Assembly (NCBI RefSeq): GCF_001902145.1
Contig: NZ_MRST01000022.1
Coordinates: 62,001 to 126,000 of the forward strand
Source: Pseudomonas fluorescens
GTDB taxonomy: Bacteria; Pseudomonadota; Gammaproteobacteria; Pseudomonadales; Pseudomonadaceae
Direction of reading: 5' to 3'
Length of the DNA stretch: 64,000 nt
This document shows, piece after piece, positions 13,090 to 53,820 of the stretch. The stretch's first letter is position 1. Every line of letters begins with the position of its first letter. Made by a program: the position numbers and the translations under genes. Under the pieces are notes generated by a model. The model was not told the origin of the DNA, did not search any database, and saw only the letters and a program-made list of their open reading frames with translations.

Positions 13090-13486
13090 GGGGCCGTTTA
13101 GGATTCGACGCCGGTCGCGAAACTTTAGGTGCATGCCGAGTTGGTAACAGAACTCGTAAATCCACTGTTGCAACTTCTTATAGTTGCCAATGACGAAAAC
13201 TACGGCCAGGAATTCGCTCTCGCTGCGTAAGCAGCCTTAGCCCTGAGCTTCTGGTACCTTCGGGTCCAGCAATCACCAGGGGATGTCTGTAAACCCAAAG
13301 TGATTGTCATATAGAACAGAATCGCCGTGCAGTACGTTGTGGACGAAGCGGCTAAAACTTACACAACTCGCCCAAAGCACCCTGCCCTTCGGGTCGCTGA
13401 GGGTTAACTTAATAGAAACGGCTACGCATGTAGTACCGACAGCGGAGTACTGGCGGACGGGGGTTCAAATCCCCCCGGCTCCACCA
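13090..13486 (+). ncRNA. ssrA: tmRNA (10Sa RNA)
   Basis: Transfer-messenger RNA that rescues stalled ribosomes and tags the nascent chain for proteolysis. The 5' end (GGGGCCGTTTAGGATTCGAC) and 3' end (GGGTTCAAATCCCCCCGG...CTCCACCA) form the tRNA-Ala-like domain. The internal reading frame at 13186-13230 encodes ANDENYGQEFALAA followed by TAA, a pseudomonad-type degradation tag. The total of 397 bases is normal. The 3' end is the integration site of the genomic island that follows. Partner of smpB in this window. Confidence 0.98.
13473..13486 (+). repeat. attL core: 3' end of ssrA
   Basis: CCCCGGCTCCACCA forms the 3' end of ssrA. An imperfect copy, one base shorter, is found at 52696-52708 at the other end of the island. 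Each copy is followed after the same 11-base interval by a near-identical terminator hairpin. Confidence 0.75.
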
Positions 13487-13670: not shown

Positions 13671-14931
13671 ATGTGCGCCCAAGCCACGCGGCTTTCAGAC
13701 ATGAAAGTCAAAGCAGCCAAGCCTAAAGAAAAGGACTACACGCTCACGGATGGCAACGGCCTTCAAATGCGAGTGAGAATCAATGGATTCTAGGCTTTGG
13801 AATTTTAACTATATCCATCCCGTGACCAAAAAACGGATCAACATGGGATTGGGTACCTTTCCCGAAGTCAGCCTGGCCCAAGCGCGAAAACGGACTGTTG
13901 AGGCCAGGGAGCTTGTCGCCCAAGGACTAGATCCGAAAGAGCAGCGTGATGTTCAGCGCCTGGTAGAAAAAGCCGCGACAGAGCACACGTTTCAAAACGT
14001 GGCGAAGGCATGGTTCGATCTGAAGAAAGACTCGGTGACTGCTGCCTACGCTGAAGATATCTGGCGCTCGCTCACTCTCCACATTTTCCCGGACCTAGGC
14101 TCAACCCCAATTTCCGCAATCAGAGCCCCTAAGGTCATCAATTTGCTCAGGCCTCTTGAGACCAAAGGTAGCTTGGAAACCGTTAAAAGGCTGACCCAGC
14201 GCCTTAACGAGATCATGACTTACGGGGTAAATTACGGGCTCATCCATGCCAACCCCCTTAGCGGGATTCGCTCGGTCTTTAAGAAGCCAAAAAAGAAAAA
14301 TATGGCCACACTGCCTCCCGATGAGCTAAATGAGCTCATGGTGGCAATAGCCAATGCCAGCATCAAAAGAACAACGCGTTGCCTAATCGAATGGCAGCTC
14401 CACACTATGACCCGACCAGCAGAGGCCGCGACCACCCGCTGGGCAGACATCGACTTCGATAAGAAGATCTGGACGATCCCAGCGGAGCGCATGAAGAAGC
14501 GTCGCACACACTTTATCCCGCTTACGGAGCAGGCTCTGGCACTGCTAGAGGCTATCAAGCCTTACAGTGGAAACAGGGACTATGTGTTTCCTGCAGACCG
14601 GAACCCTCGCACCCACTGCAACAGCCAGACCGCCAACATGGCGCTGAAGCGAATGGGTTTCGAAGGGCGCCTGGTAAGTCATGGCATGCGCTCAATGGCC
14701 AGTACCATTCTCAATGAACATGGCGACTGGGATCCAGAATTGATCGAAGTAGCACTTGCCCACGTCGACAAAGACGAAGTGCGCAGCGCCTACAACCGAG
14801 CAGATTACATTGAGCGCAGACGGCCCATGATGAACTGGTGGAGCGACCACATTCAACAAGCTGCCACTGGTAGCCTGTCCGTCTCGGCATTTCAAACAAC
14901 CCGAGGTTTGAAAGTTGTATCGATACGCTAA
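13671..14931 (+). pseudogene. P4-type tyrosine integrase, disrupted by a +1 frameshift
   Basis: Site-specific recombinase of the P4/DUF4102 family that would insert the island at ssrA. The first frame (13671-13793) encodes MCAQATRLSDMKVKAAKPKEK and the DUF4102 start up to RVRINGF, then stops. The second frame (from about 13783 to 14931) continues at SRLWNFNYIHPVTKKR. Removing one T near 13789 (GGATTCTAGG read as GGA TCT AGG) restores a ~419-residue protein of normal length. Catalytic residues are present in the second frame: Arg in HTMTRPAEAATTRW, HGMRS (HxxR) and the C-terminal Tyr in EVRSAYNRADYIERRR. Either a real inactivating mutation or a sequencing error. Confidence 0.85.
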
Positions 14932-52719: not shown

Positions 52720-52745
52720 AAAGACGTCCAAGGACGTCTTTCTTT
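52720..52745 (+). terminator. ssrA-type terminator (right copy)
   Basis: AAAGACGTCC / GGACGTCTTT with AA loop, followed by CTTTGTGCCT as at the left end. Probably the original chromosomal ssrA terminator displaced by the insertion, or the copy carried by the element. Confidence 0.8.
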
Positions 52746-52879
52746 GTGCCTGGCATTCCAGCAACCGCAATGTTAGTGTCAACCCATGACTACCTATTGC
52801 CTCACCCCGACAACCACCACCACGACCGCTTCAAGCGGAGCGTGCGAGGTGTCGTGAGCCAATAACCAACGAACACTTC

Positions 52880-53472: not shown

Positions 53473-53583
53473 CAGAGCCTGACGACGGGGGCGGTCAACA
53501 GGGCTGGGCTTCGGAATTTTCCTGCAAGACGCCGCGCTATTGATGAACTAGCGCACCCCAACCAACAAGCCTAGCCTTCCCCT

Positions 53584-53782
53584 GTCGCTGCAAAATCAGC
53601 GACCGGGTTTAGCAGCTCGGTTAATATCAAGGCTTGCAAAGCCACCATCCGTTCGAGTGATGCTTTCTGCATCCGCTGGTTCGTGTCATGGCGGCTGTGC
53701 GTGGGGCACTTTCGGGTGCGCCGGGTTCCTTGATTCCTGGTCTGCTAACCCGCGTACGGTCGCCACCCTTTTCGTTTAGCAG
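53584..53782 (+). ncRNA. Candidate structured leader RNA upstream of the DUF6124 gene
   Basis: The 348-base gap 53473-53820 is rich in pairing. It has hairpin GTCGCTG/CAGCGAC (53584-53603) and an outer stem TGGCGGC (53689-53695) with GTCGCCA (53759-53765). The outer stem encloses hairpins GCAC/GTGC (53706-53719) and CGGGTT/AACCCG (53722-53752). CTGCTAA (53742-53748) can instead pair with TTAGCAG (53776-53782), an alternative fold near the ribosome site. TTTAGCAG also occurs at 53608-53615. Structure is read by eye; function as riboregulator is inference. Confidence 0.5.
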
Positions 53783-53820
53783 CGATGTCTGGCGACTCCA
53801 TCAATCAAGGAGTTTCAGCC

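Follow-up and report, generated by a model that had tools for sequence, protein, structure and literature searches.

The leader of a DUF6124 gene contains a C4 antisense RNA, preceded by a mimic of the C4 target and followed by two target sites, the second of which overlaps the Shine-Dalgarno sequence of the gene. C4 was first described as a phage immunity RNA. By analogy with the phage systems, the leader very probably encodes a C4-type antisense RNA that, once processed, keeps its own DUF6124 gene from being translated. Similarly built leaders precede most DUF6124 genes of the same genome and recur in other Pseudomonas chromosomes, where the C4 loops covary with their target sites.

Identity and anatomy of the leader

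The window (the whole 64,000-nt stretch of DNA analysed) was searched with Rfam covariance models. RF01695 (C4 antisense RNA) matched at 81.1 bits (gathering score 45) and RF03163 (c4-a1b1) at 63.7 bits (gathering score 46.7), with E-values over the entire window of 2.5e-14 and 8.7e-14, respectively; the leader is thus a member of the C4 family and carries an a1/b1 copy 5' of C4 (Table 1). At E up to 1, isrK alone was matched besides these two, below its own cut-off. The 237-nt stretch of the preliminary description folded at −99.2 kcal/mol, against a dinucleotide-shuffle mean of −79.2 (z −4.67), and none of 200 shuffles was as stable.

Anatomy was read against the annotated phage P1 record (AF234172) by comparison of letters. 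The elements follow in the order a1, b1, C4, a2, b2 on the Shine-Dalgarno sequence and ATG, which is the order of the P1 c4-icd leader; b2 is separated from the start codon by 10 nt in the window and in P1 alike, and the GG of the P1-like mature 5' end is present at 53690. The loops of C4 are complementary to a2 and b2 downstream, with b2 at the ribosome-binding site.

The outer stem around two hairpins proposed in the preliminary description was borne out by the C4 consensus, and the additional upstream copy of TTTAGCAG is present; the element had been started too far downstream, as c4-a1b1 begins at 53571. The description had also let CTGCTAA pair either within the second hairpin region or with TTAGCAG just before the ribosome site. 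Complementarity to TTAGCAG within TTTAGCAG stood, but the hairpin pairing did not, CTGCTAA (loop a') being an unpaired 7-nt junction both in the minimum-energy fold and in the C4 consensus; nor does TTAGCAG lie directly at the ribosome site, since the 3' end of a2 is 38 nt 5' of ATG. Overlooked was the pairing of the other loop, CCTTGAT (b'), with ATCAAGG on the Shine-Dalgarno sequence and in b1. From the Shine-Dalgarno overlap, C4 would be expected to repress translation of the downstream gene.

Table 1. Features of the window relevant to the C4-DUF6124 leader and its surroundings.
Feature	Position	Strand	Basis or remark
tmRNA gene ssrA	13090-13486		
Phage-type integrase gene	13783-14931		3' of ssrA
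ssrA terminator copy	~52720-52751		94% over 32 nt
Conserved-promoter place	53549-53577	+	-10-like TAGCCT 53572-53577; TAGCGC at -35 position 53549-53554 instead of TTGNNN
c4-a1b1 (RF03163), upstream mimic of C4 target	53571-53623	+	Rfam, 63.7 bits
a1 TTTAGCAG	53608-53615	+	complementary to loop a'
b1 ATCAAGG	53626-53632	+	complementary to loop b'
C4 antisense RNA (RF01695)	53684-53770	+	Rfam, 81.1 bits
P1-like mature C4 form	53690-53767 (GG to CCACC)	+	putative ends, from P1
Loop b' CCTTGAT, apical loop	53728-53734	+	C4 consensus and P1 comparison
Loop a' CTGCTAA, junction	53742-53748	+	C4 consensus, P1 comparison, covariation
a2 TTTAGCAG, target of a'	53775-53782	+	letter comparison, covariation
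b2 core ATCAAGG, target of b'	53804-53810	+	overlaps Shine-Dalgarno
Shine-Dalgarno AAGGAG	53807-53812	+	overlapped by b2
DUF6124 gene, 84 aa	53821-54075	+	PF19619, 88.2 bits

The DUF6124 protein and its operon

Assignment of the protein to DUF6124 was confirmed (PF19619, E 3.3e-25). Its predicted fold is a two-helix hairpin (mean pLDDT 84.9); no structural neighbours were found at E≤0.001 among solved structures and viral models, nor did a sequence comparison with solved structures give a credible match. The literature searched gave no function for DUF6124 or DUF3077. The P1 gene in the position of DUF6124, icd, is annotated as a cell-division inhibitor (AF234172), which suggests by analogy that production of DUF6124 might harm the cell, as the toxic small protein of a type I toxin-antitoxin pair would. 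The window RNA is a C4 RNA and its operon is not an immI operon: the genes 3' of C4 are DUF6124 and then a gene without a named family, and the icd and antirepressor genes of P1 immI were absent from that position.

Copies within the same genome

In the assembly (G000; 27 contigs, 5.97 Mb) 13 C4s scored over the cut-off, as did five of the 15 a1b1 matches. DUF6124 domains over the cut-off numbered 16, in agreement with the multi-copy family reported in the preliminary description. All 13 C4s were followed on the same strand by a DUF6124 domain 57–175 nt downstream. The leaders of other family members, whose comparison had been proposed, proved to be related: 13 of the 16 DUF6124 genes have a C4 leader, with three-way covariation. 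The DUF6124 gene at C25:179881 has an a1b1-like leader and no C4, and no C4 in this genome has an a' that matches it; the one at C11:233662 is without a recognised leader, and the third, at C11:367609, is degraded.

Across the 13 paralogs, 97.2% of C4 stem cells were paired, with eight pairs changed on both sides (0/500 shuffles as high; slid controls 33–45%), and the long stem with two hairpins that defines the RF01695 fold was recovered with covariation. Loop and target sequences vary between these loci and agree within each.

At G000:C22:74869-74918 (−; locus L040), an a1b1-like site without C4 lies directly 5' of a 90-aa protein that looks DUF3077-like, possibly as a target-only leader.

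Distribution in the genus and beyond

Among 40 same-genus genomes, the one under study included, C4 was present at E≤0.001 in 36 and over the cut-off in 35; copies ranged from 0 to 42 per genome and totalled 661, with 36 to 42 in six of the 40. In a survey of the phylum C4 was found in 42 of 299 genomes, the copy numbers there being lower bounds from 14 scored candidates per genome. Three complete relatives held 42, 42 and 41 C4s, and a1b1 was nearly as frequent (41, 41 and 37). In these three genomes, 105 of the 125 C4s had DUF6124 (93) or DUF3077 (12) on the same strand 74–504 nt downstream, whereas random placement (200 trials) gave 0.42 on average and never more than 3. The 20 C4s without such a match were read individually. 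Five preceded Bro-N, antirepressor-like genes, one of which was tested and gave Pfam Bro-N at 3.3e-12 together with PHROG anti-repressor matches; 13 preceded small proteins that are DUF3077-like by eye, with no Pfam match over the cut-off in the six tested; and of the last two, one C4 was cut short into a DUF3077-like gene and one was without such a gene. The Bro-N protein behind the C4 of L151 starts with MIKVTPNPP, as do several DUF6124 proteins of the genome under study, as if leader and first codons had been swapped.

In named Pseudomonas records, C4 lay just 5' of DUF6124 at 43 of 59 loci, and one of the 16 loci lacking it was cut by a contig end. Rfam detected a1b1 alone 5' of the gene in two of these 16 (L095 and L100), and six of nine C4-less leaders viewed by eye had an a1-like hairpin and then a Shine-Dalgarno sequence. 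Loci L094, L095, L100, L101, L104, L106 and L112 keep the a1-like hairpin and Shine-Dalgarno sequence with no C4, and could be trans targets or escaped genes. Of three C4-less leaders in P. fluorescens FW300-N2E3, two had a C4 with a matching a' loop, with a poor b' fit.

The nearest named relatives by DUF6124 gene were P. paracarnis, P. lactis and P. paralactis. As to possible empty sites, three (G006, G007 and G017) of 29 genomes, the own one apart, have the module's downstream gene with no C4 within ~1.4 kb upstream. Tandem neighbouring C4-DUF6124 modules were seen at L071, L073, L084, G005:C1:3628473-3630617 and G019:C1:1820530-1827285. Between the isochorismatase gene and the module, L071 and L073 have ~1.1–1.5 kb more than the window, and L073 has a second module there.

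Covariation of loops and targets

A pool of 121 C4 loci was assembled from 13 own loci, 46 from named records, 42 search-derived (31 from 29 same-genus loci and 11 from the phylum search, some outside the genus) and 20 without a DUF6124/DUF3077 match; nine antisense-strand matches were removed, and 118 loci were distinct. In the 13 own loci, permuted loci were as good as cognate ones in 0, 0, 0 and 1 of 10,000 permutations for a'-a2, b'-b2, a'-a1 and b'-b1, respectively; in the pooled 118, none of 10,000 matched the cognate pairing for any of the four pairs, although these loci are related and the statistics ignore kinship.

Leaders were aligned with MAFFT (117 of 118; one with a short flank was left out). 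Loop a' was paired with a1 in 773 of 816 cells (95%; 171 changed on both sides) and with a2 in 755 of 816 (93%; 164 changed on both sides), in related loci and with no correction for kinship; sliding the partner by 1–3 columns lowered pairing to 13–48%. There were 41 distinct a1/a'/a2 triplets, a few of them alignment misses; examples are TTTGACAG (the P1 code), TTTAGCAG, TTTGGCGA, TTTCGCAG and TGTGGAAG. Loop b' formed a mean of 8.5 pairs with its own leader versus 5.2 with others. Its duplex overlapped the Shine-Dalgarno zone in 98 of the 101 loci with an assigned start codon and missed it in three, a start codon not being assignable by the rule used in 17 of 118.

Target specificity

Combined a2 and b2 energies were used to rank targets. 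In the own genome the cognate target ranked first for 12 of 13 C4s (mean −24.1 versus −14.6), the exception being a568, which favours another target. The margin of the window C4 was thin (own target −21.8, next best −21.0 and −20.9). In FW300-N2E3, with 27 C4s, the cognate sum was −619.9 versus a permuted mean of −418 and minimum of −493 (10,000 permutations); 18 of the 27 preferred their own target and nine paired better elsewhere. By this measure the loop/target code is mostly self-specific, with room for cross-talk, and because it is locus-specific the majority of modules should chiefly silence themselves.

Promoter, terminator and alternative readings

A promoter-like pattern, TTGNNN-N17-TANNNT, stands just 5' of a1b1 in 12 of 13 own leaders, the window copy being the exception; in the pool, the pattern with spacers of 16–18 was present in 65 of 117 leaders versus 3% of shuffles. 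The −35 element of the window copy would therefore be weak or lost, and with no −35 TTG the copy could be weakly transcribed. The missing TTG and the thin specificity margin would both fit a decaying relic of a formerly active C4 module, as would degraded copies elsewhere: C11:367609, which lies near another DUF6124 copy, L092, where C4 overlaps the gene start after a deletion, L158 and L159. We regard a relic as unlikely, since C4, a1b1, both target pairs, the Shine-Dalgarno sequence and the open frame are intact in the window and the module is retained in the nearest named relatives (L071-L073).

A second alternative is that the leader acts mainly in cis, a1b1 and a2b2 competing for the C4 loops as a folding or attenuation switch, with no free antisense RNA. 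Every partner lies on one leader and pairs one-to-one, as such a switch would have it, and 18 of 118 loci, versus 14 of 590 shuffles, have a terminator-like hairpin that separates a1b1 from C4; isrK, to which the a1b1 region shows a weak match (41.8 bits), is reported to have alternative mRNA structures as well as a short trans form (PMC4825925). The hairpin, however, occurred in just one of the 13 own loci and was not detected in the window copy, and the fold is that of C4, which is reported to be processed and mRNA-acting in P1/P7 and processed in Acinetobacter baumannii (PMC5320573). An action mainly in cis is accordingly improbable. Of the cis-acting switch of the preliminary description, what survives is a regulatory RNA, conserved and able to form mutually exclusive pairings, in front of DUF6124; it belongs to a named antisense family, C4, and is no riboswitch. 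A metabolite riboswitch, for which alternative pairings near the Shine-Dalgarno sequence might speak, can be set aside almost entirely, because the loops are variable and covary with their targets where a ligand pocket would be conserved and Rfam 15 yielded no riboswitch family, either at gathering level or with the E-value limit relaxed to 1.

Chromosomal setting

Flanking genes with a Pfam name, one or more per locus, were present at 10 of the 13 own loci, and these were chiefly ordinary genes of the chromosome (isochorismatase, cysteinyl-tRNA synthetase, thioredoxin, MFS and EamA transporters, GNAT, GST, DJ-1 and a purine-synthesis enzyme); the exceptions were a phage integrase fragment at one locus and a ParA-like gene at another. 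The integrase gene after ssrA, together with the terminator copy at ~52.72 kb, delimits a putative ssrA island of ~39 kb (13090-52751) in the window. The C4 module sits outside it, and in L089 and L093 a C4-DUF6124 module lies within ~250 nt after ssrA, from which we take the window module to be probably chromosomal and not island cargo.

Phage and plasmid sequences

Among phage records DUF6124 was found in one, EU982300, at the record edge beside the repressor gene prtR and with C4 upstream. In IMG/VR, 50 loci carried DUF6124 and 47 of them C4; these may be phage genes or host flanks of prophages. Phage cargo and plasmid cargo were both considered and rejected, with that single phage record on the one hand and no DUF6124 match in the plasmid collection on the other.

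A degenerate C4 pattern was matched in IMG/VR at at least 81 places in at least 80 loci. Among the matches listed (81 places), 50 lay before DUF6124, five before DUF3077-like and four before Bro-N-like genes, three were cut off and 19 had none of these. Of the cut-off or unassigned places listed, 18 were read, and 10 lay before a protein of 52–63 aa (...IPSKIRA.AHR...), with a2 and b2 arranged as in the other leaders (L242, L246, L255, L256, L257, L260, L273, L277, L278 and L289). Two tested members of this kind gave no PHROG match; in Pseudomonas phages the protein may take the place of P1 icd. Phage or prophage contigs thus appear to circulate C4 leaders joined to small genes of other kinds. 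Bro-N relatives gave no match by pattern in viral contigs, and 470 weak matches in phage records, chiefly to antirepressors of other phages. When C4 loci of phage contigs (17) were cross-matched, pairing with the best C4 of the chromosome averaged −25.8, about equal to the −24.1 of chromosomal targets with their best non-identical C4, a result that lends cross-immunity no support.

Proposed mechanism and implications

We infer the following course for C4 silencing of DUF6124, from transcription start through processing and repression to the decoy role. A transcript starting just 5' of 53571 would span a1, b1, C4, a2, b2 and the DUF6124 gene. C4 (~78 nt, close to the ~77 nt of typical processed C4) would be excised, as by RNase P in P1/P7, and its a' and b' would pair with a2 and b2 of the mRNA, masking the Shine-Dalgarno sequence; DUF6124 protein would then be made only while little C4 is present or its loops are taken up. 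The a1b1 copy 5' of C4 would vie for these loops, either in cis or acting as a decoy, and a short decoy RNA, as with IsrK in Gifsy-1 (PMC4825925), would be one option for relieving repression.

C4-DUF6124 is a large antisense family in Pseudomonas and would provide a natural collection of RNA repressors, most of them specific to their own locus. The likely target of a C4 can be read from the sequence, as the Shine-Dalgarno sequence of the next gene, through a code that is particular to each locus and shows covariation at three places; removal of C4 would give a direct experimental handle on DUF6124 and DUF3077. C4 itself is already known, as is a multi-copy C4 family in Acinetobacter (PMC5320573). 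Within the literature searched, no published link of C4 to DUF6124 or DUF3077 was found; to that extent the association with these gene families in Pseudomonas is new, as are the covariation at three sites, the targeting of the Shine-Dalgarno sequence and the scale of the family.

A wider and quite doubtful reading is that Pseudomonas chromosomes hold a diversified set of alarm genes, locked by RNA and assembled out of components of phage immunity. Every DUF6124/DUF3077 protein would be silenced by its own C4, and the matching a1b1/a2b2 RNA of an incoming phage would soak up C4 and free the protein, or the chromosomal C4 would silence a small gene of the phage. The loop codes would then diversify through an arms race with phages. 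The same-build C4 leaders before other small genes in phage and prophage contigs are in line with such alarm genes; the cross-matching described above spoke neither for nor against them.

Comparison with known systems

In P1/P7, C4 is released from the leader by RNase P, and through its loops it pairs with the target both 5' of the ribosome site and across that site (PMC5320573). The Pseudomonas leaders share with P1/P7 the fold, the a1-b1-C4-a2-b2 order and a b2 that sits immediately 5' of a small gene's start codon, and the P1 code TTGACAG recurs at other Pseudomonas loci. They differ in that C4 precedes DUF6124 and not icd-ant, in a copy number that reaches 42 per genome, in the many loop codes, and in being flanked, where flanks are named, mostly by ordinary chromosomal genes. 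The Bro-N genes under C4 in Pseudomonas have the same leader type and a different downstream protein.

IsrK of Gifsy-1 (RF01394) combines a short leader RNA, acting in trans, and a read-through mRNA with alternative structures (PMC4825925); its match in the window is below the cut-off of 50, and the window copy is without a detected terminator between a1b1 and C4. For A. baumannii, 21 group 1 C4-like sRNAs are reported in one genome, processed and with a variable a' loop (PMC5320573), a multiplicity and variability like those seen in Pseudomonas. The part of that report consulted names no target for them, whereas in Pseudomonas the next gene and its Shine-Dalgarno sequence are the evident target.
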